Shown here: positions 3,477 to 24,996 of the stretch, piece by piece | Position numbering within the stretch: the first letter of the stretch is position 1 | How the letters are laid out: every line of letters starts with the position of its first letter | Source of the DNA: a virus | Direction: 5' to 3' (one strand) | DNA: 25,017 nt | Virus record (IMG/VR): IMGVR_UViG_3300046011_002851 | Span: 1 to 25,017 of that record | Notes under the pieces: generated by a model | Told to the model about the DNA's origin: nothing | Database searches by the model: none | The model's input: only the letters and a program-made list of their open reading frames with translations | Program-made: the position numbers and the translations under genes

Positions 3477-6214
3477 TACTCAGTTCCTCCATCAATTGTG
3501 GATGTAGTATCGCGGTAAACACCTTGGTTAATATCGACAAGGCGTTTAGCGTGACGAGCTCTAACAGACTGAAGTGCCTTATAAGCATTCTTCATAATTT
3601 TTCCTCGTTCCTCAATACTCTTAGCACCCAAGCCCTGAACATCTTGTAAAGCTTTACGTTCGTCATTAGAAATTGCACCTGGGAAAGTAGACTTCAACTG
3701 AGCAAGAGCAGCTCTCTCAAGCAAGTTTTCTTGCTCACGGGTAGCCACAACTTTAGGATGCTTGGAGTTAGTAACTTCCAGGGCTTTTCTCTGGGCAATG
3801 TCGCTTATAGACGTGTCAAAAGTATTTGGGTTCAAAGCAAAAGCTTGTTTCAAAATACCAAGAGCGGCATCCGTTTGAGCCAGTGTGTCTTCAGTTTCAG
3901 TTTTAAGTTTTACTTCAGGGCCGGTCAACTTAGCTTGTTGATTTTTTTGGTTTTGGAATTTCTCTTGATTCAGAGCTAAGTTAGCTTGAGCAGTAGAAAC
4001 GTTGGCAAGCGCAGCACTAATCTGTGCCATCTTACCTTCCACGTTCAAATTGCCGATTTCGCCAACTCGCTTCTGATACGCTTCGGTGCCTGGCTTAAGA
4101 CCCTCATCAAGAGCTTGTTTACCAGCAGCAGACTGAGGTTCGCCTGACTTAATGTAGTCTTTGATGAGCTCTGTTGCAATGGCTCGCTTGTCATCCATTT
4201 CTTTACCGGCCAATGCTCGCAAAGTATTCAAGTCTTCTTTTGAAGAAGTCATTTTCATCTTCTGAGCTTCAAGAGCAAGAGCAAGTTTCTGCTGAGTAGT
4301 TGCGCGCTTGCCTTTAGCATATTCGCCTAACTCTTTACCAACCATGCCGAGATTTTCACTGAACTGGCCTGTCTTAGTAGGGGCGCCAAATGCTGCAGCC
4401 AAACGGAAATACATTTCGGCTTTAGAGCTTTGAGCATCTTCAGGTGAATTCATAGCTCCTGTGAGCATCTTAGCAAAAGCATCAGTTTCAGCTTTAGCAG
4501 CAGCTCGAGCAGTTGTAAGTTCTTTGTCGTAAGCACTATCTTTAGGGCCATACGATGCAAGCAAAGCCTGAATGTTAGCCATACGCTCATTGCCAAATGG
4601 GACAGGAGCTTTAGGGGCAGCAGGCGGTACGGCAACAGGAACAACTTCTGCAACAGGAGCAGCTGGCATTGGATTTGCTTTAAGATTATTAGCAGCAACT
4701 TCAGTCAACACAGACCTAGGCGCTGCTGCAACAGGTGCAGGAGCAGGCATCAGGTCCACAGTGACAGGAGGCGGAGGTGTGCTCATGTCTACGGGATAAG
4801 TTACAGCATCTGCTGAAGGAGTAAAAAACCTGTTTTTAAAGTCTTCTTCTTCCTCAATGCTGCCATAACCGCTAGGTAGCTTAACTTCGCCGGCAGTTTG
4901 GTAATGAGTTTTTACAGGACCGCCCATAGCGTACTTATCGGCCAGGTCATGAACAGAACCACCATGGGCCATATAACTATAGTCAATGTTTGAATTATTA
5001 CCGCTCACGTCTAAGCTAGTGGCTAGTTTGCCTGTCGTATCTTTTGTGTTGGCAATAGTGGCTAGCCTAGTTGCTTCTGCAGCTTTAGCATCAGCAGCAG
5101 CTTTTTCATCGGCAGCAATTTTTGCAAATGTGGAGTTTAAATTTTCAGGTTTAAATGCTCCGGTCGAAAGCTGGTTCATCCAGTAGTTATAACCAGGCGC
5201 GTCAATTGTTCCTGCGTCCCAGCTACGACCAATGCTTTTATAAGCATCAACAATGTTCTGGTTGTAAGTCGGATAAGCTCTTGCTGTGAGTTGCGCCCAA
5301 TCACCTTCAGCGGGTTTGCCAAAAGTAGAAGTTGTTGCATTGCGCAGGTCTGCGTCTGTATAACCGATATCGCGTTGGCTTCTGTAATAGTCTGCTTTAT
5401 TCTGTGGAGTCTGATTAAAAAGAGATGCATTTACAGCGCCATACGTTGGGTTCTTAAGCTGATTGCCGTAATAACTTCCTGTGGCGTTGTACATGTCTTT
5501 GTTGCTAACACCCCACTTATCACCTTCAGCTTTAATCTGAGCTGTAGTAGCGTAAGGATTGTCAGTAATATATTGGTTGATATTAGTTTTGACTTGGTCC
5601 ATACCGATGCCACCAGGACCTCTAGCAGAGCGTTCCATGTTTGACCCATAACCTGCAAACTGGCCATCACCATACCTGAAGTCTGAGCCCATAGCATTGC
5701 GAATGTCTGCGTCGGTAACGTCATACTGTTTTTTAACGGCAGCAATGTCAGCAGCAGAGGCTTTTGGATTTTGAGCAAACCAGTTTTGAATGTTGCGGTT
5801 AGCTTGGTCAATACCTATTCCGCCTGCTTTATCTGCAGCAATCCTCATAGCAGAGCCTGTAGGTGTAGTCGAAGCAGTGCGGCCATAACCAGTATCAAAC
5901 TGCCCTTGCAAATACATCGGCGTATTTGACAAACGATTTTGATAGTCAGTCTTGTAGGTGTCGTATGACTTCTGGTCAAGACCGTACTTACGAAAAGCTT
6001 CATTGAAAGCGGTTTTGTCTTTTGCGTAAGCATCAGCATCTGCCTTCTGTTTGTCATAAGCAGCTTGCGCTGCTTTTGCAGCATCGTCATTGCCGCCTGG
6101 TCTTTCACCAGTAGGAGCTGTGGGAATTACTGGGGCGGCAGCACCTGTGTAAGTAGCCATACCAGGCGTGTTAACGCCGTACTGCTTCATAATTCGATTG
6201 AGTTCAAATCCCAT
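3476..6214 (-). CDS. Very large internal virion / ejection-type protein with internal repeats (912 aa)
   Basis: The start ATG has a strong AAGGAGCAGAT site upstream. An Ala/Lys-rich helical N-terminus (about 41-95) precedes two copies of a 46-residue unit at 131-176 and 201-246. Each begins GGIG.DQ, contains NP.A, and ends in V...D..NA.G. A third fragment (TDADLRNAT) lies near 286. Residues 413-445 carry MAHGGSVHDLADKYAMGG, a Gly-Gly motif also seen in other proteins of this operon. A Pro/Ala-rich linker (about 475-550) leads to a long, charged, probably coiled-coil C-terminal half. There is no obvious membrane segment. Size, composition and position suggest a protein packaged in the capsid and ejected with the DNA. 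No catalytic motif was found. Confidence 0.7.
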   Translation of the reverse strand: MGFELNRIMKQYGVNTPGMATYTGAAAPVIPTAPTGERPGGNDDAAKAAQAAYDKQKADADAYAKDKTAFNEAFRKYGLDQKSYDTYKTDYQNRLSNTPMYLQGQFDTGYGRTASTTPTGSAMRIAADKAGGIGIDQANRNIQNWFAQNPKASAADIAAVKKQYDVTDADIRNAMGSDFRYGDGQFAGYGSNMERSARGPGGIGMDQVKTNINQYITDNPYATTAQIKAEGDKWGVSNKDMYNATGSYYGNQLKNPTYGAVNASLFNQTPQNKADYYRSQRDIGYTDADLRNATTSTFGKPAEGDWAQLTARAYPTYNQNIVDAYKSIGRSWDAGTIDAPGYNYWMNQLSTGAFKPENLNSTFAKIAADEKAAADAKAAEATRLATIANTKDTTGKLATSLDVSGNNSNIDYSYMAHGGSVHDLADKYAMGGPVKTHYQTAGEVKLPSGYGSIEEEEDFKNRFFTPSADAVTYPVDMSTPPPPVTVDLMPAPAPVAAAPRSVLTEVAANNLKANPMPAAPVAEVVPVAVPPAAPKAPVPFGNERMANIQALLASYGPKDSAYDKELTTARAAAKAETDAFAKMLTGAMNSPEDAQSSKAEMYFRLAAAFGAPTKTGQFSENLGMVGKELGEYAKGKRATTQQKLALALEAQKMKMTSSKEDLNTLRALAGKEMDDKRAIATELIKDYIKSGEPQSAAGKQALDEGLKPGTEAYQKRVGEIGNLNVEGKMAQISAALANVSTAQANLALNQEKFQNQKNQQAKLTGPEVKLKTETEDTLAQTDAALGILKQAFALNPNTFDTSISDIAQRKALEVTNSKHPKVVATREQENLLERAALAQLKSTFPGAISNDERKALQDVQGLGAKSIEERGKIMKNAYKALQSVRARHAKRLVDINQGVYRDTTSTIDGGTE
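5477..5824 (-). repeat. Two 46-residue protein repeats, 70 residues apart
   Basis: The segments coding residues 131-176 (5687-5824) and 201-246 (5477-5614) of the 912-residue protein align without gaps. They share GGIG, DQ, NI, NP, an Ala/Ile pattern, V and NA.G. The DNA has diverged, so this is an old duplication. Confidence 0.75.
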
Positions 6215-6223
6215 ATCTGCTCC

Positions 6224-7669
6224 TTAACCTAAACTGCTCAAGCCCTTAGCCGTATACGTAGCCGCCGCCAATTGAGCCAAAGGCGAAGCTGAGTATGTGG
6301 CGCCGGTTGAACCGCCGGATTGTGTTGTCATTTGCGGTGTGATTGGAGCCATACCGCGTATTTGCGTACTGAGGAAGTCAGCTTGTTGTTTTCCGTACAA
6401 GTTTTCGGCATCAAATTGTGATTTAGCCGCATTGAGTTGCTGCTGCATTTGGTTTTGTTGAGCAGAACCGGCTCCTTCAAGAGCTGCAACATCGGCAGAG
6501 CGCATAGCTTGTTCTTGCTGCTGCATATTGGCAAACTGGCTAAGTGCAGACATTTGACGCTGATAATCAGCGGCTTGTGCTTGTTGAGCAGCTTGAGCAG
6601 CATTAAGACCAAACTGTTGCTGAGTTTGACCTGCACCTGTTTGAGTCTGACCTAAATTAGCCAGGTTTTGCATTTGCTGCGACGTCATCTGACCTTGAGC
6701 TTGACCTATGTTGGCCAAATTCTGTTGTTGCTGTGCAGTCAAACTACCTGCAGTTTGTGCGAGGTTTTGATACTGACCTGCGCCTTGCAAGACGCGAGAA
6801 AGGTCTGCACCAGAAATGCTGCCAACTGTTCCGGCCAATTGAGCTTGGCGTGCAAGATCTGCCTGAGAAGCACTAAGAGCCTGACCATAACCCTGGTTAG
6901 CAAGTTGAGCTTGTTGATTAAGGATAGCTTCTTGAGTATCACGCAATGCTCGACTACCAAATTCACCCATGCGGCTAGAGCCAAACTGACCGGCTTTGAT
7001 GAAAGAATCAGATACTCCAGGCAATAAATTTTCGCTAAGATTGCGTGCACCTTGCTTAGCAATTGCATCCATGACTCCTGTTTGATAAGGAGACATGTAG
7101 TCTTTAATTCCTGCAGAAGCAGTACCTGCGGCAGCGGTAAGATACGGATTAGCTGCAGTCAAAGCTTTATCGGCTAGTGCTGCAGCTGTTGTTGTATCAG
7201 ATTTTGTCAGGTAAGGATTGGCCGCTGCAACTGAGTCTAAGCCGGCAGCTTTATTCAAATTGACATTGGCCGCAGCAACTGCATCCAACTTGCCGGCTTG
7301 ATCAAAATAACCTTGACCTTTGGTCAATTGACCCAATGCAGTTGCAGGATCTTGTAGATATTTGTTTTGCGCTGTTTGCAAATCTGCAGCTGTACCTTTG
7401 CTGCCAAATTCATACATGCCTGACTGAGCTTTGTCAATATCGCCTTGATAGAAGCCTTGATTGGCTTGTACATTTTTGTAAGCTTGTTGCTGCAATGGCG
7501 AAAGCTCGGCAACGGTTGGCATGTCATAAGACTGAAAAGGCTTATTGGCAAGATTTGTTGCAATCTGGATTTGGTTGTAAATTGCATCCTGCATCCACTT
7601 TGGTGTCTCAGTGGATGAGGTTGCATAAGACGTTGCGGTCTGTGGAGACCCTTGGAATAGGCTACCCAT
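6224..7669 (-). CDS. Gln/Ala-rich internal virion (DNA-ejection) protein (481 aa)
   Basis: The start overlaps the preceding stop (TAATG) behind a strong AAGGAG site. The N-terminus (TPKWMQDAIYNQI, then ELSPLQQQAYKNV) is followed by Ala-rich repeats containing AAANPYLT (about 130-180). Then comes a conserved-looking core, GARNLSENLLPGVSDSF.KAGQFGSSRMGEFGSRALRDTQE (about 205-245). Next is a Gln-rich helical region with repeated QNLAN.GQ units (about 300-345). From memory this core is common in podovirus-like phages, where it is annotated as an ejection or tape-measure-like structural protein. It lies between two other ejection-type genes. No enzyme motif is seen. Assignment to the virion is firm; the exact step in DNA delivery is inferred. 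Confidence 0.72.
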   Translation of the reverse strand: MGSLFQGSPQTATSYATSSTETPKWMQDAIYNQIQIATNLANKPFQSYDMPTVAELSPLQQQAYKNVQANQGFYQGDIDKAQSGMYEFGSKGTAADLQTAQNKYLQDPATALGQLTKGQGYFDQAGKLDAVAAANVNLNKAAGLDSVAAANPYLTKSDTTTAAALADKALTAANPYLTAAAGTASAGIKDYMSPYQTGVMDAIAKQGARNLSENLLPGVSDSFIKAGQFGSSRMGEFGSRALRDTQEAILNQQAQLANQGYGQALSASQADLARQAQLAGTVGSISGADLSRVLQGAGQYQNLAQTAGSLTAQQQQNLANIGQAQGQMTSQQMQNLANLGQTQTGAGQTQQQFGLNAAQAAQQAQAADYQRQMSALSQFANMQQQEQAMRSADVAALEGAGSAQQNQMQQQLNAAKSQFDAENLYGKQQADFLSTQIRGMAPITPQMTTQSGGSTGATYSASPLAQLAAATYTAKGLSSLG

Positions 7670-9564
7670 TATGCAAACTCCTTCAAATATGATAAGGGAG
7701 ACTTAGCATTAGGGCTAATCTTGCCTTTTGCCAAAGTTTTTCCTTTGTGCGCACGAATGTTTTGGCGCATAGCTTCAAGGCGCTTAGCTCCTTCTTTACT
7801 GGAACCGTCTCCTAGCATTGCAACTGTTTCTGCATCAATCACATATTCACCATCAGATAGTTTTGCATCAATGGTGTCTGCTCGACCTGAACCGGCTCCT
7901 TGCGCAAACCGGGCTACAGCTGACAGAGCGCCGCCGCGTGCTTTATTGACAACCGGCGCTTGAGGAATATTATACAATCCTTGCTGTGAAGCCACTTGTC
8001 CAGGTTGTGTTTGTGCATAACCTGTAATCTTTGGCCAGTTGGCAGCCATAAACTGGTCAAGACTCATATTAGATGCATTGGCATCTGTTTGCATTTTGTT
8101 CCAGTCCCAAGTAACTGAAGGGCGGTTGAAATACTCTTGCTGCTCAGGAGACATCTTAGCAATAGCCTCTTGAGCTGCAGGTGGTGGTTTTTGCAAAGCA
8201 CTCAAAAGGCTTAAACCGCCTATTACCTTACCTGTCGTACCCATGCCGGTATCAGCTTTGACACCGTCAGCAGTAGTGGTTGTTGGTGCTGTTTTCTCAA
8301 ATATGCTGCCTTTGAGAGCTCTATCCATAAACCCTGGCTCAGCAGCTTTCCATTCAACCGTATTGGTCTGTGGATTTAGTTGGTAAGAACCTGCATCAAC
8401 TTTAAAAGCCATTTTGCCGGTTGCAGGGTCTAGTACGTTTGTACCTGTCCTACCTTGAGCATCTACACCAGGAGTTCCTGGTGCCTGCACAACGCTGCCG
8501 TCAGGCAAGGTAACTGTTTTAGGCGCCGCTGTTTCTCCTGATTTAAGGCTATCGACCACAGCATCTGAGGGCTTCATGTTTGTTTGAATGCCCTTTAAAA
8601 GGCCTGAAGTCACGCCGATCGTAGCCGCTGTTTTAGGGTCATAACCTGCAGTCAATGCATTGCCAAAACTTTGACCCGCGCTACTGATGCCTTGCTCAAA
8701 AGCAGTAGGGCCGCCATAACCGCCAGCAAGTTGACCGATAGCACCACCAGCCACGCCTTGCAAAGCCCCTTTAACTACACCTTGACCAGTTAATGCTCCT
8801 GCGCCGGCGCCTACCAAGCCGCTACCTATAATACTTTGCGTAGCTGCACTTGCGCCAGGAGCAACGTATTGACCAACCGCACCGCCTAAACCTCCGCCCA
8901 GGCCGCCCATCAGAGCGCCTTTTTTCCAATCACCACCAGTCAAAGCAGAAGTAGCACCACCTAAAATAGCGCCTCCCAACATGCCGGTTGCTAAAGTGCT
9001 AGCACCTGCGCCAAGCAAACTTGAACCGATAGCTGTACCAAGACCAGGAACAAAAATAGCAAGAGCAATAGGAGCAAGAGTAGCAAATAATTCTTTACCA
9101 CTCTTATATTCACGAAGACCTGTGTTTGGATTGATTGTTCCTGCACCACCCATGCGCTTAAGCATTTCAGCTTCACGGTCATTGATGTGAGCTAATTGGC
9201 TATCACCCCCTCGACCTGCAGAGGCAACGCGCCTAGCAGCAACAGCCAAACCTCCGCGGGCATAACCTTGCTTTTTCAAGCGATCTTGTATGCCATAAAG
9301 AGCAACTAGTATGGAAACTATGAAAACAATGTCAAACTGCTCAGGGAACATGTTTGCATCGATGTCGCCGTCTTTAATAGCACCTGCACGCACTTCCTCA
9401 TACTTATCAGGATTCTGAATCACAAACTCAAGAATTTGAATAGCTTGATCAAGATCTTCTGGCACAATAGGCATTCGCGCTATTTGTGCTTCCATTGCAT
9501 CAATAGCCGGCGCGTACTGAGGATCTTGCTCAGCCATCTGCATAATTGCGTTTTTAATTTCCAT
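7669..9564 (-). CDS. Glycine-zipper internal virion / ejection protein (631 aa)
   Basis: The start lies behind an AGAGGTTGAT site encoded in the end of the preceding gene. Residues 1-60 look helical, 76-92 are hydrophobic, and 160-285 form a long run of Gly-zipper hydrophobic helices (GAGAGALTG, GGLGGGLGGAVG) suited to membrane insertion. Two related modules flank this: ARGG near 102 followed by GRGGDSQLAHINDREAEML (118-136), and ARGG near 542 followed by GRADTIDAKLSDGEYVIDAE (560-579). The second form is a motif common in phage tape-measure and internal proteins. The architecture fits a protein that is ejected and helps form a channel through the host envelope. This role is inferred from composition and neighbours, not shown. 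Confidence 0.7.
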   Translation of the reverse strand: MEIKNAIMQMAEQDPQYAPAIDAMEAQIARMPIVPEDLDQAIQILEFVIQNPDKYEEVRAGAIKDGDIDANMFPEQFDIVFIVSILVALYGIQDRLKKQGYARGGLAVAARRVASAGRGGDSQLAHINDREAEMLKRMGGAGTINPNTGLREYKSGKELFATLAPIALAIFVPGLGTAIGSSLLGAGASTLATGMLGGAILGGATSALTGGDWKKGALMGGLGGGLGGAVGQYVAPGASAATQSIIGSGLVGAGAGALTGQGVVKGALQGVAGGAIGQLAGGYGGPTAFEQGISSAGQSFGNALTAGYDPKTAATIGVTSGLLKGIQTNMKPSDAVVDSLKSGETAAPKTVTLPDGSVVQAPGTPGVDAQGRTGTNVLDPATGKMAFKVDAGSYQLNPQTNTVEWKAAEPGFMDRALKGSIFEKTAPTTTTADGVKADTGMGTTGKVIGGLSLLSALQKPPPAAQEAIAKMSPEQQEYFNRPSVTWDWNKMQTDANASNMSLDQFMAANWPKITGYAQTQPGQVASQQGLYNIPQAPVVNKARGGALSAVARFAQGAGSGRADTIDAKLSDGEYVIDAETVAMLGDGSSKEGAKRLEAMRQNIRAHKGKTLAKGKISPNAKSPLSYLKEFA

Positions 9565-9565
9565 A

Positions 9566-10000
9566 TCAACCTCTGTACCAAACGTGTGAATGATAATCCT
9601 CAGCTAAAAAACCATAAATGTGTAAGTCATCATCGATGAAAGACTTACGCATTATGCCTTCTAACTTAAACCCAAAATGCTCATTGATTCTTTTGGCCAG
9701 TTTGTTTTTACCGCGCAGCAATCCAGTAACTCTGGCTGCGTGCAGCTTATCAAACACAAAACCAAAAACCCCATTAAACATCTCAATCGTGCCTTTCGGC
9801 GTTACTTTCCTACTATCAATTGCAATGCTAAGATCAATATTACGTGGAGTGAAATTGGTCATCACAACTACGCATACAAACTCATCATTCTCATCAACAG
9901 CCGACATCGCCCTAAAAAACGATGGCGCATTTTCAAGCTCAAGCTTTGCACGCGCCCAAGCCTCTGCTTCATCCTCGCGTTCAAAACCAATAAACCGCAT
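9566..10000 (-). CDS. GNAT-like N-acetyltransferase (144 aa)
   Basis: The C-terminal half has the pattern of RimJ/RimL-type GNAT proteins: beta strands, RVTGLLRGKNKLAKRINEHFGF (about 89-110), then EGIMRKSF..DDLHIYGFL. Asn/Arg-Lys residues before the GF motif sit where acetyl-CoA-binding GNATs have their helix. The N-terminus (FEREDEAEAWARAKLE) is helical and not typical. Such genes occur among podovirus tail and ejection genes, where their substrate is generally unknown. Acetylation of a virion or host protein is possible. The stop is one base before the next gene, and the start overlaps the previous stop (TAATG). Confidence 0.7.
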   Translation of the reverse strand: MRFIGFEREDEAEAWARAKLELENAPSFFRAMSAVDENDEFVCVVVMTNFTPRNIDLSIAIDSRKVTPKGTIEMFNGVFGFVFDKLHAARVTGLLRGKNKLAKRINEHFGFKLEGIMRKSFIDDDLHIYGFLAEDYHSHVWYRG

Positions 10001-15571: not shown

Positions 15572-16714
15572 TTACAAGTTGCCAGTGTTTGTTGAAGGGA
15601 AACTGCGTGTTGAACCTGGCCAAATAATTCTAACAGCTCCACCAGCTCCTATACCATAACCTGCACCGCCGCCATAAAGACCGCCGCCTCCTTTAATGCC
15701 ACTAGAATCTTGAGATTCTGCAGAAGCTCCACCAGAACCGCCTGTAGCATTTGAGTTATAGCCGCTAGAACCAGAACCATCGCCGCCTTGACCTAAAATT
15801 CCAACGCCTCCACCTCCGCCGTTGTAACCGCCGCCACCGCCACCGCCACCGCCGCTTCCGCCGCCGCCACCACTTCCGTTATTACCGCCGTTACCGCCAG
15901 AACCTGCATAACCGCCAGCGCCTCCGCCGCAACCGTAGCCACCTGGACCGCTAACAGCATTAGCTGGACCGCCATTACCCCCGCCATCACCAGTGTATGA
16001 ACCGCCGGAGTGAGAAGAAAAGTCTGCGGCACCAACTCCGCCACCGCCTCTAACAACCCCTGTAGAAACAAAATAACTAGCCCCTCCTGAGTTACCTCCG
16101 ACAGAAGCGCCTGATCCAACAACAACGGTATAACTATTGCCTGGAGTGACGGTGTAGTTGTTTTTATAACCTAGTCCGCCACCACCGCCGCCCGCACCTG
16201 GGCCTGCACCACCTCCTGAACCGCCACCGCCAACAGCAACTACAGAAACATTAGTAACAGCGCTAGGAGCTACCCAAGAATAAGTGCCTGGCGTTGTATA
16301 TGCTTGTTGGCCTGTTACGGGCAAAGTTACGCTATTGCTAGCAGCGCTAGATGCTCCTGTTCCAGCAGCATTAGTTGCAGTAACTGTAAATGTGTAAGTT
16401 GTACCGCCTGTTAAACCTGTCATAGTTAAAGGAGAAGATGCTCCTGAAACAGTAACTCCTCCGGGACTAGAAGTGGCAGTGTATTGAGTAATTGCAGAAC
16501 TTCCTACATAAGAAGGTGCTGTAAAGGGAATGCTGGCAGATGTTGAACTGACAGAACTTGCAGTACCAATAGTTGGTGCATTAGGAGAACTTGGCCAAAT
16601 GCCTAGTTTACGATAACCGGCTGCTTGGCTCAAAGTCCACATCCCTTTAGCTACAGTAGCGCTAACTGTAGGGGAAGTTTTACTTATAAATCCGCCAGGA
16701 TATTGTTCGCTCAT
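15572..16714 (-). CDS. FN3 + glycine-rich adhesin, copy A (380 aa)
   Basis: A short N-terminal head (1-44, with GMWTLSQAAGYRKLGIWP) is followed by a fibronectin type III domain (about 46-131, APTIGTA...SSPLTMTGL.GGTTYTFTVTATNA). A glycine-rich domain (about 135-380) starts QQAYTTPGTYSWVAPS and includes GLGYKNNYTVTPGNSYTVVVG. Long poly-Gly runs follow, and the protein ends AVRIIWPGSTRSFPSTNTGNL. Gly-rich domains of this kind are known in phage receptor-binding tips, such as the distal adhesin of T-even-like phages. It is one of three paralogs here. The start has a GGAGG site encoded in the end of the previous gene. Receptor binding at the tail tip is likely but unproven. Confidence 0.78.
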   Translation of the reverse strand: MSEQYPGGFISKTSPTVSATVAKGMWTLSQAAGYRKLGIWPSSPNAPTIGTASSVSSTSASIPFTAPSYVGSSAITQYTATSSPGGVTVSGASSPLTMTGLTGGTTYTFTVTATNAAGTGASSAASNSVTLPVTGQQAYTTPGTYSWVAPSAVTNVSVVAVGGGGSGGGAGPGAGGGGGGLGYKNNYTVTPGNSYTVVVGSGASVGGNSGGASYFVSTGVVRGGGGVGAADFSSHSGGSYTGDGGGNGGPANAVSGPGGYGCGGGAGGYAGSGGNGGNNGSGGGGGSGGGGGGGGGYNGGGGGVGILGQGGDGSGSSGYNSNATGGSGGASAESQDSSGIKGGGGLYGGGAGYGIGAGGAVRIIWPGSTRSFPSTNTGNL

Positions 16715-16716
16715 AC

Positions 16717-17142
16717 TTAAGCCTCCGGAACAAACTCAACCCAAGAAACCGTAGGTTCGTCCCAAATATAATTTTTACCTGTGGTTGGATAAGCAACAGG
16801 AGGTTGAAAAGAACAAGTTGCTTCGTCAAAAAGCCAAGATTTAGGGTTTGTTGCGTTAGTTGCCCAATTCGCTTTAACCCCATCTTGTTTTGTTTTAATT
16901 TCTTCAGCAGTCATCTTATCGCAATACCATACATCGCGATACACGCCGTCAGAACCAAGCTCATACTGAACACGTTTATTTTTATCATAAACTCCCCAAA
17001 CAGGAGCTTGAATACGCTCAAATTTGGCAAACTCAGGCGGTAACTTATTTGTATCAACGTCTGGGAAAGCTTGTCTAAAATTATCTTCAAAAATTGGATG
17101 TTCAAAAGCTTGACCGTTTTTGATTCTAATGAAAAGTTCCAT
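16717..17142 (-). CDS. Small conserved phage protein between adhesin genes (141 aa)
   Basis: This soluble protein contains NKLPPEFAKFERIQAPVWG (about 32-50), a beta region with DGVYRDVWYCDKMTAEEIKTKQ (about 65-86) and a Trp-rich C-terminus (SWLFDEATCSFQPPV, YIWDEPTVSWVEF). The MTAEEI...KQ...V helix resembles, from memory, small phage proteins found beside tail fibre genes, some of them fibre-assembly factors. It sits between two paralogous adhesins behind a strong AAGGAG site, so it may be a chaperone or partner of the copy downstream. That role is inferred from position only. Confidence 0.6.
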   Translation of the reverse strand: MELFIRIKNGQAFEHPIFEDNFRQAFPDVDTNKLPPEFAKFERIQAPVWGVYDKNKRVQYELGSDGVYRDVWYCDKMTAEEIKTKQDGVKANWATNATNPKSWLFDEATCSFQPPVAYPTTGKNYIWDEPTVSWVEFVPEA

Positions 17143-17159
17143 TTGGTTTTCTCCTTAAT

Positions 17160-18335
17160 TTACAGATTGCCGGTATTAGTTGAAGGGAAGCTGCGAGTAT
17201 TTCCTGGCCAAATGATGCGGACTGCACCACCTCCTGCTACAGATGAGCCGTCGTTAGAAAAACCACCACCACTACCTCCGCCGTACGCTCCACCGGCACC
17301 GCCTTGACGACCTGAACCTTGGCTACTTCCAGAAGCGCCACTAGATCCGCCGCCACCGCCTGTTGGATAACCAGAACTACCTCCAGCTGCACCACCTGCG
17401 CCGTTAGAACCTTGACCAAGAAGACCAACGCCTCCTCCGCCAGCTCCGCCAAAATCAACCGTGGAGTAATTTGCTGTTCCGCCGCCACCGCCACCGCCAC
17501 CGGCTCCGGCAGAACCTGCCGTATTTACTGGGATAGCACCATTGCCACCAGCTCCGGCATAACCGCCTCCGCCTCCGCCTGCACCAGTACCTCCAGGCGA
17601 ACCTGAACCACCTCCGCCGTTACCGCCTCCATCGCCTGTGTAAGTTCCTACTGCAGGATTACTTGAATCGGCATAATAACCACCGCCGCCACCGCCACCG
17701 CCTTTAACGACGCCTGTTGAAACAAAATATGAATCTGCCCCGCCAAAACCTCTGCGAGCTGCGCCTGCACTTGGAGCTCCGCCAGCACCCACAACGACTG
17801 TATAAGAACTTCCTGGAGTAACTGTGTAGTTGTTTTTATAACCTAAACCTCCACCAGCACCACCGCCGCCTGAACCTGAACCGCCTGAACCACCGCCTCC
17901 AACTGCAACAACAGAAACAGTAGTGACTCCTGAAGGTGCAACCCAAGAATATGTACCAGAAGTTGTATATTCTTGCTGTCCATTTATAACTGCAGGAGTA
18001 GCGCTATTGCTAGCAGCGCTAGCAGGCCCTGTGCCTGTAGCATTAGTAGCTCTAACCGTAAATGTGTAAGCTGTGCCTGTTGTTAAGCCTGTCACCGTTA
18101 TTGGTGAAGAAGATCCTGTAGCGGTTATACCGCCTGGACTAGAAGTTACGGTATAACCAGTTATTGTTGCAGGATAGCCAGAATTAGCAGGTGCAGTAAA
18201 AGTAACTGAAATAGAAGTTGACCCAGCATTTGTTGCTGTACCAATAGTTGGTGCTCCTGGTGGTGATGGCCAAATACCATCACCAAGTGCCTGTAATTGT
18301 TGTCTTGAAGTCCAAAGACCTGAAAAATTAGGCAT
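17160..18335 (-). CDS. FN3 + glycine-rich adhesin, copy B (391 aa)
   Basis: The domain order is as in copy A. A short head (1-26, GLWTSRQQLQALGDGIWP) is followed by an FN3 domain (about 27-114) and a glycine-rich domain (about 118-391) opening QQEYTTSGTYSWVAPSGV and containing GLGYKNNYTVTPGSSYTVVVG and TYTGDGGGNGG. The C-terminus, GAVRIIWPGNTRSFPSTNTGNL, is nearly identical to that of copy A. The start overlaps the stop of copy C (TAATG), with a GGGGA site inside copy C's final codons. The poly-Gly segments differ in length and order from the other copies. A surface-binding tail-tip role is inferred. Confidence 0.78.
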   Translation of the reverse strand: MPNFSGLWTSRQQLQALGDGIWPSPPGAPTIGTATNAGSTSISVTFTAPANSGYPATITGYTVTSSPGGITATGSSSPITVTGLTTGTAYTFTVRATNATGTGPASAASNSATPAVINGQQEYTTSGTYSWVAPSGVTTVSVVAVGGGGSGGSGSGGGGAGGGLGYKNNYTVTPGSSYTVVVGAGGAPSAGAARRGFGGADSYFVSTGVVKGGGGGGGGYYADSSNPAVGTYTGDGGGNGGGGSGSPGGTGAGGGGGGYAGAGGNGAIPVNTAGSAGAGGGGGGGGTANYSTVDFGGAGGGGVGLLGQGSNGAGGAAGGSSGYPTGGGGGSSGASGSSQGSGRQGGAGGAYGGGSGGGFSNDGSSVAGGGAVRIIWPGNTRSFPSTNTGNL

Positions 18336-19405
18336 TACAAATTCCCCGTGTTTGTCGATGGGAAGGCTCGGCCAGCGCCCCAGATAATTCGGACGGCTCC
18401 ATCATTGCCGGCACGAGTATCACCTGCACCCCCACCATACGTTCCGCCAAAAGCGTTGGCGCTTGTGTTTGCTGCTGCATAAGTACCGCCGGAACCGCCC
18501 TGCCCCCCGTAACCGTAACCGAAACTTCCAGGCGCAATTCCGCTATTTGAGCCGGAACCGCTAGTGCCTTGGCCTAGAATACCTACCCCACCGCCGCCGC
18601 CGCCTTCCCAATCAGAGCCTGCACCGCCACCGCCGCCACCGCCGGAACCGCTACTACCGGCTCCCCAACGGCTACCGCCAGTTCCACCGGAACCTCCGTT
18701 ACCGGCATAACCGCCTGCACCACCGCCACCAGCCCCAAAACCAGAACCGGGTGCGCCGCCGTTACCACCACCGTCACCAGTATAAGTACCACCTGAAGTA
18801 GTTTGACCTCCACCGCCTTTAACAGTTGAAGTGTTGATGAAATAAGAGTCACCGCCTGCGCCAGAAGTTCCAGCCCCTACAATTACTGTGTAAGAGTTGC
18901 CGGGCGTCACGGTAAGATTGTTTTTATATCCTAATCCGGCTCCACCACCAGCAAACTTATAATTACTATTTCCACCGCCAGCTCCAACAGCTACAACGCA
19001 AACACTAGTAACACCACTCGGAGCAACCCATGAGTAAGAACCTGCAGTTGTATAGGCATCTTGGCCTATTGCAGCAAGAGTTATTGAATTACTTGAAGAG
19101 CTTTTTGGCCCTGTACCAAAAGCATTAGTGGCTGCAACTGTAATGGTATAAGTAGTACCAGTTGTCAAACCTGTTACTGTTATTGGAGAAGAAGAGCCTG
19201 TTGTAGTTACAACTGTTCCCGTAGAATCTTTGGCTTCGGCTATGTAGCCGGTAATAGCTCCTCCGCCAATGTTAGATGGAGCCGTAAATGTTATGGAAAT
19301 TGAAGTTGAACTAGCTTGAGTAGCCGCACCAATAGTAGGTGCGTCAGGAACTTTCAACGGAAAATAGGAAGCGGTCAATATTGCCGCCTGATAGCGCATT
19401 GACAT
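18335..19405 (-). CDS. FN3 + glycine-rich adhesin, copy C (356 aa)
   Basis: This is the first and most diverged of three paralogs. Its head (MSMRYQAAILTASYFPLKVP) differs from the GxW...IWP head of the other two, which suggests a different attachment point. FN3 spans about 21-111. The glycine-rich domain (about 115-356) has GLGYKNNLTVTPGNSYTVIVG and TYTGDGGGNGG and ends in RAFPSTNTGNL. A strong AGGAG lies 6 bases before the ATG. The C-terminal 8 residues are the same in all three copies despite a changed core, so they are probably important for folding or capping. Confidence 0.76.
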   Translation of the reverse strand: MSMRYQAAILTASYFPLKVPDAPTIGAATQASSTSISITFTAPSNIGGGAITGYIAEAKDSTGTVVTTTGSSSPITVTGLTTGTTYTITVAATNAFGTGPKSSSSNSITLAAIGQDAYTTAGSYSWVAPSGVTSVCVVAVGAGGGNSNYKFAGGGAGLGYKNNLTVTPGNSYTVIVGAGTSGAGGDSYFINTSTVKGGGGQTTSGGTYTGDGGGNGGAPGSGFGAGGGGAGGYAGNGGSGGTGGSRWGAGSSGSGGGGGGGAGSDWEGGGGGGVGILGQGTSGSGSNSGIAPGSFGYGYGGQGGSGGTYAAANTSANAFGGTYGGGAGDTRAGNDGAVRIIWGAGRAFPSTNTGNL

Positions 19406-24685: not shown

Positions 24686-24996
24686 GATTTAGACATTGTC
24701 ATGCCACCCTTTTTCATCATCATTTTGTCGCCTGGCAAATTAGGGGCTGTGCGCATTTTGGTTTCACCTGGGTTTTTGTTGTTCATAACACCCAAAGTAC
24801 CGCGGTTTTTAATCATCCCTTGAGGAGCTGATGGAGCCTTAACAGTTTCACGCACCATGACTTCTTTACGCATCATCTTTGGGGCTTCAGAAACTTTTCC
24901 GCCTTTAGAATAGCAGTTTGCACTGCCGCCCATGGCAAAACCTTTAGTCATTTTGCCTGATTTGAAATCAAAATCTTTTACTTTTCCAACTGTCAT
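24670..24996 (-). CDS. Met/Lys/Gly-rich small virion-type protein (108 aa)
   Basis: The composition is unusual: 14 Met, many Lys, repeated Gly-Gly motifs (GFAMGGSANCYSKGGKV at about 19-35, MKKGGMTM near 98) and a C-terminal Cys (SSKKC). It is strongly basic and probably disordered. Strong ribosome site AGGAG, 6 bases before the ATG. It is the first gene seen in the minus operon, before the connector-like gene, where phages often encode small capsid-associated proteins. A DNA-binding or capsid-interior role fits the charge, but this is inference. The AMGG motif recurs in the 912-residue protein. Confidence 0.62.
   Translation of the reverse strand: MTVGKVKDFDFKSGKMTKGFAMGGSANCYSKGGKVSEAPKMMRKEVMVRETVKAPSAPQGMIKNRGTLGVMNNKNPGETKMRTAPNLPGDKMMMKKGGMTMSKSSKKC

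Follow-up and report, generated by a model that had tools for sequence, protein, structure and literature searches.

What is the role of the two short ARGG-headed blocks that stand on either side of a membrane-type segment in a predicted 631-amino-acid (aa) protein encoded on the virus contig IMGVR_UViG_3300046011_002851? All 25,017 bases of this contig were analysed (the window). An initial annotation had read the two blocks as copies of one duplicated module, and related x-x-GG motifs in other proteins as possible cleavage, packaging or interaction signals of proteins that enter the capsid. Its observation is partly confirmed and its interpretation partly supported. ARGG is found at residues 102-105 and 542-545, both quoted strings follow exactly as written, and a membrane-type stretch lies between the sites (a hydrophobic part at 157-201 plus a sub-threshold glycine-zipper match at 192-233). 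Among 20,000 composition shuffles of the protein, two or more ARGG occurred in 26, and the whole pattern, which had been picked after the sequence was seen, did not occur even once. Judged from sequence comparison, the two blocks are distinct portable modules that both begin with AxGG in this protein, and the homology of the C-terminal one (C-module) to the hook module of siphophage tape measure proteins (TMPs) is well supported. The features of the protein are as follows.

7669..9564, minus strand: open reading frame (ORF) of the 631-aa predicted ejection protein with both modules
9271..9564, minus strand: N-terminal helical domain, residues 1-98 (AlphaFold2 (AF2) model, block predicted local distance difference test (pLDDT) 75-91)
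9250..9261, minus strand: first AxGG, residues 102-105 (YARGGL), read from the sequence
9106..9264, minus strand: N-module, residues 101-153, defined by conservation (YARGGL..GRGGD[ST]xLAHINxREAxML..GGsGTINPxTGLxEY)
8722..9096, minus strand: hydrophobic/glycine-zipper-like stretch, residues 157-281 (Kyte-Doolittle segments within 157-201)
7930..7941, minus strand: second AxGG, residues 542-545 (KARGGA), read from the sequence
7681..7944, minus strand: C-module of the tape-measure hook type, residues 541-628, defined by matches to TMPs

At least 586 related stretches of the 631-aa protein were found in viral contigs, from which 79 loci were kept and 72 distinct family proteins, some of them truncated, were aligned. 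Conservation peaks at residues 101-153, around 471-490 and at 541-628, with the N-block present in 71 and the C-block in 70 of the 72 proteins, and AxGG preceding the N-module in 68, the C-module in 58 and both in 57. G104, G105 and L106 are invariant across the 72 members and A102 is found in 69, while at the second site the GG is kept in all 70 members covering it and A542 in 57. The C-module follows the consensus ARGG..GaGsGRaDtIdAkLSDGEYVIDAETVAMLGDGS..GAkrLd.MR..IRxHKGK.LaKGKfSPnAKSPL.YL, in which R561, D563, I565, A567 and LSDGEYV are invariant in the 70 members that cover it. A hydrophobic segment is also present at residues 70-97. The stretch 157-281 is helical in a low-confidence model, and its match to Gly-zipper_YMGG (PF13441) at 192-233 stayed below the cut-off (16 bits vs 28.9, E=0.0097). 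The third conserved block, residues 471-490 (MSPEQQEYFNRPSVTWDWNK), matched nothing, and a beta domain is predicted with confidence (block pLDDT 81-90) for residues 350-410, within a poorly conserved region.

As a whole, the 631-aa protein remained without a PHROG match up to E=0.1; it gave three chance-looking matches in a PDB sequence search and, with its full-length model, 89 matches in a PDB fold search, none of them at E<=0.001. Searched in isolation, the window's C-module matched eight PHROG families, five labelled as TMP and three as unknown (best E=1.4e-5); the GB2A C-module matched 16 (11 TMP, one endolysin, four unknown; best E=2.2e-8), and the modules of DSL-LC04 and HTVC104P gave a similar picture. 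Of the cultured Caulobacter phages related to this virus, GB2A has the hook at the end of its protein as well, and RW, RLK and KcrB gave matches over that region. Among 50,697 phage records, 1,282 matched a composed hook query with E up to 1, and 60 rows sampled along its ranking comprised 50 tape measure proteins, three endolysins, five hypothetical or coil-containing proteins and two entries without annotation. Against PDB sequences the family profile gave one match, the Douge TMP (E=0.0021), and the hook query gave Douge gp16 twice (964-1003, 1411-1447) as well as a 1,158-residue TMP at 1018-1056, which is the JBD30 sequence; a broad hook profile found JBD30 with E=2.5e-7. This structure-entry match led to a published description: in the available part of the JBD30 paper, TMP residues 1022-1066 are predicted to fold into a hook, with two helices plus a short hairpin, that is speculated to anchor the TMP in the baseplate after expulsion (PMC11445458). 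The C-module match coincides with this predicted hook. According to the available parts of the respective papers, the last 33 TMP residues were resolved in JBD30 (PMC11445458) and the last 42 in Douge (PMC13033339), so that the hook module itself is unseen in these structures.

The AF2 model of the C-module alone contains two helices, as in the JBD30 hook prediction (block pLDDT 75-93), at positions 48-54 and 59-82 of the 101-residue piece, i.e. residues 578-584 and 589-612. The 631-aa protein carries AxGG followed by the hook core D-x-I-x-A-x-L-S-x-G-E-[FY]-V and, past the core, the modelled helix pair. In a scan seeded with the GB2A-type hook, which was not split by phage type and in which a few frames run off the locus end, the core lay 36-83 residues from the frame end in 79 of 80 distinct proteins. 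The hook module has no Pfam model of its own and is seen inside PHROG TMP profiles; Pfam searches with four module segments gave sub-cut-off matches only, and a BFVD search with the module model gave 42 matches, of which the five at E<=0.001 were all uncharacterised or unnamed phage proteins. Hook-core strings occurred in no paper, and among the open-access papers listed for keywords no title or abstract start names the module, with a description elsewhere possible, nor is it described in the available parts of PMC8954989, PMC13243795 and PMC7291167. Listed literature matches to short AxGG strings look like nucleotide matches or chance.

The N-module recurs in other proteins as well. It was found at the N-terminus of the phrog_4287 DNA ejection protein of phage Venkman and a relative, and, headed by FANGG, between hooks in a tape-measure-like open frame of 1,536 aa (L257:1-4608), in which three hooks and one N-module are interspersed. 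When eight N-module proteins were compared with PHROGs, three matched (two tape-measure, one DNA ejection) and five remained unmatched. From its position, the N-module may have a docking or anchoring role.

In order to compare both blocks directly, profiles were aligned. With narrow family profiles, a comparison that took in AxGG and closely related sequences, the N- and C-blocks align in register over 33 columns with a score of 26.1, and none of 300 column shuffles was as good (best 22.6). After AxGG had been removed and broad non-redundant profiles from 34 N-module and 72 hook sequences had been used, 11 columns aligned and 109 of 300 shuffles scored as high. Hence the two motifs are real and family-conserved, but the proposed duplication of one module is not supported, since the match between the broad profiles is at chance level. 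In one scan, AxGG stood at most 30 residues before the hook in 44 of 80 distinct proteins; another scan, with 53 distinct N-module proteins from 80 loci (the rest being identical or without a pattern match), had it at that distance before the N-module in seven of 53, where 36 proteins form one Venkman-like group without AxGG and the remainder shows it in 7/17. Therefore AxGG, N-module and hook are three separable elements that are combined by the 631-aa family.

The relation of AxGG to the hook was followed in a TMP-seeded scan of 80 viral-contig loci, which provided 57 distinct ORFs, the rest being identical or without a pattern match. AxGG was located 8-20 residues before the hook core in 47/57 ORFs. 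Of these ORFs, 53 reach far enough past the core to show a second AxGG at a distance of 25-80 residues, and 39 have one; shuffling gave 3.25 on average and at most 9 in 200 runs, and an equally wide control window upstream gave 12/57. The seeds of the search account in part for the first AxGG but not for the second. The usual layout in TMP-type ORFs is AxGG-hook-AxGG. By inspection of 14 TMPs, two of them partial, two AxGG 45-74 residues apart were found in eight, and not in those of Marinitoga virus 2, HK97, T5, KP13-27, Whirlwind and PSonyx. The 631-aa protein has no second AxGG 25-80 residues past the hook core; it looks like a processed TMP because it ends 58 residues after LSDGE, at the hook.

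The genetic context of the 631-aa protein was deduced from the following genes of the window.

Minus strand: SU10-type adaptor, 212 aa (E=4.1e-27)
Minus strand: 399-aa protein with tail-fibre matches
Minus strand: 615-aa virion structural protein (phrog_3287)
9566-10000: gene of a GNAT-type acyltransferase (phrog_4470, E=4.2e-22)
6224..7669, minus strand: 481-aa neighbour with a weak match to the DNA ejection protein family phrog_4287 (E=7.2e-5)

The genes are arranged in the order 615-aa structural protein, 78-aa protein, GNAT-type protein, 631-aa protein, the 481-aa phrog_4287-like protein, 912-aa protein and 688-aa protein. Phage DSL-LC04 shows a similar order (stabilization protein, two small genes, the homologue of the 631-aa protein, phrog_4287 protein, two large proteins), carries an annotated Pam1-type adaptor, and has the homologue of the 631-aa protein annotated as tail tape measure. 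Judging from this synteny, the cassette is of the podophage ejection type, and by its gene position the 615-aa protein is a putative nozzle. The 631-aa protein has hydrophobic segments and lies beside ejection genes and the gene that is nozzle-type by position, as a podophage ejection protein does. It lacks the marks of a tape measure: there is no long tape, and its neighbours are the SU10-type adaptor, the 615-aa structural protein and ejection-type genes, not tail-tube or chaperone genes. The 329-aa protein also matches the SU10-type adaptor family, with a score below the family cut-off. The GNAT-type gene sits within the virion cassette and adjoins the 631-aa ejection protein gene. Three glycine-rich proteins of 380, 391 and 356 aa (window 15572-19405) are similar by eye and are probably fibre paralogues.

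The x-x-GG motifs that had been noticed in other proteins of the operon were located as follows.

4919..4969, minus strand: AHGG (residue 416) and AMGG (429) of the 912-aa protein, from the sequence
24925..24936, minus strand: AMGG (residue 21) of the 108-aa protein, read in the ORF translation and seen too in a 115-aa frame

These three sites are AxGG, whereas SKGGKV, which had been listed with them, is not. Likewise, the suggested enrichment of a loose (A/M)xGG motif in internal over external virion proteins gave no separation. The motif was observed 31 times vs 19.7 expected in the class of the 631-aa protein, and also 25 vs 14.5 times in the 940-aa fibre-like class and 10 vs 6.0 times in the 399-aa tail-fibre class; the loose test fails because glycine-rich fibre-like proteins hold the motif too, and (A/M)xGG was discarded as a virion signal. 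What survives of the shared signal is the sharper [YF]AxGG. In a set of 406 predicted genes (frames of >=80 aa, uncurated) from seven related contigs, one of them in part, plus the window, [YF]AxGG not followed by G occurred 43 times vs 6.66 expected (about 6-fold), in 30 genes: 7/8 of the 631-aa class, 7/10 gene pieces of the 912-aa class and 16/328 unclassified genes. The latter comprise, by inspection, six genes adjoining a gene of the 329-aa class (the position of the 108-aa protein), two small basic proteins with repeated GYAKGG, five large proteins, one gene after the 912-aa class, one glycine-rich fibre-like protein and one protein of 92 aa. The 329-aa (0/7) and GNAT (0/4) classes are among those without it. 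Permuted motifs occurred 13 (A[YF]xGG), 3 ([YF]xAGG) and 10 (GGxA[YF]) times. In DSL-LC04, where 47 of 85 annotated features and forward-strand frames >100 aa were surveyed, the homologue of the 631-aa protein, a glycine-rich protein and a PcfJ-like protein encoded between terminase and portal have [YF]AxGG twice each, and a 114-aa protein close to the portal has it as well.

Large proteins (L091:10994-13588, L094:15286-18792, L096:4837-7776, L104:9328-13560, L106:11152-12918 and, in DSL-LC04, L110:10344-12821) probably adjoin terminase and portal genes, as judged by position; they are so annotated only in DSL-LC04. A phrog_7595 N-terminus is common to four of five of them, while the middle domains differ (tail lysozyme, SLT, dockerin type, DUF6973 below cut-off, and PcfJ-like in DSL-LC04), and the C-terminal end of several is [YF]AxGG plus a YDP..V-like tail. 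Their appearance is that of virion proteins whose cargo can be exchanged. Two small basic proteins (L099:6799-7059, L104:1-265) consist mostly of repeated KGYAKGG units.

Our preferred explanation, to which we give about an even chance, is that the hook anchors an ejected membrane-channel protein and that the 631-aa protein serves in podophage ejection and has the build of a processed TMP. What can be read from the sequences is the kinship of the hook, its terminal position and the cassette context; beyond that, we infer an ejection, a membrane insertion and a docking partner. The protein would combine a helical N-terminus, the N-module, a hydrophobic glycine-zipper-like channel segment and the C-terminal hook module. 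It would be ejected, its hydrophobic part would enter the envelope, and the hook would dock to a tail-exit protein, either the nozzle or a fellow ejection protein. Such a docking could hold the channel in line, as in T5, where TMP* does so with its last 42-43 residues, which were modelled in a crevice of the opened hub, as far as the available part of the paper goes (PMC10038345). The AxGG before each module would serve as a flexible junction and in some TMPs also as a processing site. If so, podophage ejection proteins are linked to siphophage TMPs by a concrete shared module instead of by analogy, and the question of how an ejected channel stays aligned with the tail is reduced to residues that can be changed.

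Several points weigh against this explanation. To our knowledge, podophages lack the siphophage hub, which is the proposed partner of the hook, and any docking partner in podophages is putative. Some TMPs hold several hooks far from their end (two in Douge, three in the L257 frame), and because of this a single tail-tip anchor is not the whole function. Among the named hook-bearing TMPs, only that of lambda has a hydrophobic segment some 20 residues or less from its hook, which rules out that hooks regularly stand beside membrane segments. Pelagiphage HTVC104P gp81 (L084:6144-7445), which also has several AxGG sites, ends in a hook and is encoded between portal and capsid genes, where an ejection role would be speculative. 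For the MinM2 module there was no match to a TMP family and a single one to a PHROG family of unknown function. The broad hook profile found lambda weakly (E=0.0053) and the T5 anchor, which lacks the hook core, not at all; its HK97 match (E=0.15) lay outside any hook. Finally, the full-length model puts both modules mostly below pLDDT 50, and a JBD30-type beta-hairpin is absent from the AF2 module model (mean pLDDT 66.7, predicted template modelling score 0.42).

It is also conceivable, albeit rather unlikely, that AxGG is primarily a processing site, i.e. that a protease of the host or of unknown origin cuts ejected proteins before it (P1'-P4' = A-x-G-G), which would free domains from anchors or cargo. 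The one outside anchor for the cleavage signal proposed earlier is T5, where the TMP cut after R1127 was located by proteomics and mass spectrometry, as reported in the available part of PMC10038345. This cut directly precedes A1128-E-G-G, one of only two AxGG in the T5 TMP, and RAxGG is kept in 5/5 relatives fetched, of 901 matching records, with a query that contained the RAxGG string (most distant of the five, E=0.4). The frequent second AxGG past the hook would fit as well, and so would two large proteins of related contigs, in which AxGG follows a muralytic domain after 24-29 residues (lysozyme 181-313 then 342; SLT 111-207 then 231). Mature lambda gpH* has a mass of about 78-79 kDa, and we computed 79.8 kDa for a gpH cut at 733 and 84.6 kDa for a cut at 778. 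In a lambda tail structure, residues 818-849 of gpH were modelled, and the available part of the text contains no words beginning with cleav- or proteoly- (PMC10721106); in view of this absent wording the paper neither supports nor excludes a gpH cut. Against a processing site, T5 is the only mapped case seen, and P1 is R there but mostly Y, F, M or K in the 631-aa family. AxGG is missing from the 30 residues before 36/80 hooks and 46/53 N-modules, and the cut that is speculated on for JBD30 by its authors would be at 1066 instead of AxGG (available part of PMC11445458). With regard to a T4-type processing of internal proteins by a phage-encoded maturation protease, the families Peptidase_S78 (PF04586) and CLP_protease (PF00574) have no support as cutters, since the 15 records searched, possibly including fragments, held no member of either; the search was limited to these two families.

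Both roles could be joined in a wider proposal, which we regard as speculative and probably not correct in full: in siphophage TMPs as well as podophage ejection proteins, [aromatic or basic]-A-x-G-G might generally mark the junctions at which anchors (hooks), channel segments and muralytic cargo of ejected proteins are joined. A protease would separate the parts there in at least some phages. Siphophages would expose the hook by such a cut, whereas in podophage proteins like the 631-aa protein the gene itself would stop at the hook. Such a reading of AxGG predicts where many TMPs may be processed.

A packaging or assembly tag for head-internal proteins is a still weaker candidate for AxGG and in our opinion improbable. 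The restriction of [YF]AxGG to few protein kinds would be in line with it, as the motif is absent from the adaptor (0/8), nozzle-like (0/9) and the two fibre-like (399-aa, 0/8; 940-aa, 0/8) classes, and so would small basic proteins with up to four copies (the L099 protein). However, the same element occurs in siphophage TMPs, which are located in the tail tube and not in the head, and two classes of the ejection cassette itself, the 481-aa (0/9) and 688-aa (0/7 genes) classes, are without it. Very unlikely is the idea that AxGG and the modules are mere flexible glycine-rich linkers without a specific partner: low AF2 confidence of both regions in the full-length model and the frequency of other first residues ([ILV]AxGG 31 times in the 406 genes, with no expectation computed) would agree with it, but long invariant non-glycine runs in about 70 members and the recurrence of the modules in otherwise different proteins do not. 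The duplication of one single module is close to refuted, as the invariant core of the N-module (H126, N145, P146, T148) is not found in hooks, even though the narrow profiles match and both kinds occur with an AxGG-like start in the L257 protein.

Among known systems, the siphophage TMP hooks of JBD30 gp46 (1022-1066) and Douge gp16 resemble the C-module in their AxGG start, the core type G-x-G..SD-x-I-x-A-x-L-S-x-G-E-[FY]-V and the following helices, and both of these solved-structure entries match it in sequence. In contrast to the 631-aa protein, which ends after the hook and has no long tape, a second AxGG and more residues usually follow the hook in siphophage TMPs, and in some of them (Milly and GTE6, by eye) a muralytic-looking domain does. 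T5 pb2/pb2* is similar in that an anchor segment directly before AxGG forms the mature C-terminus and a hydrophobic segment lies upstream, but it shows no hook core by profile, and its end is made by proteolysis, as far as the available part of the T5 paper shows (PMC10038345), whereas the hook of the 631-aa protein is the encoded C-terminus. With the ejection proteins of podophages (phrog_4287, P22 and T7 types) the 631-aa protein shares the position past a nozzle-like gene, a phrog_4287 neighbour and hydrophobic segments; unlike them, it is without a PHROG match of its own and carries a TMP module.

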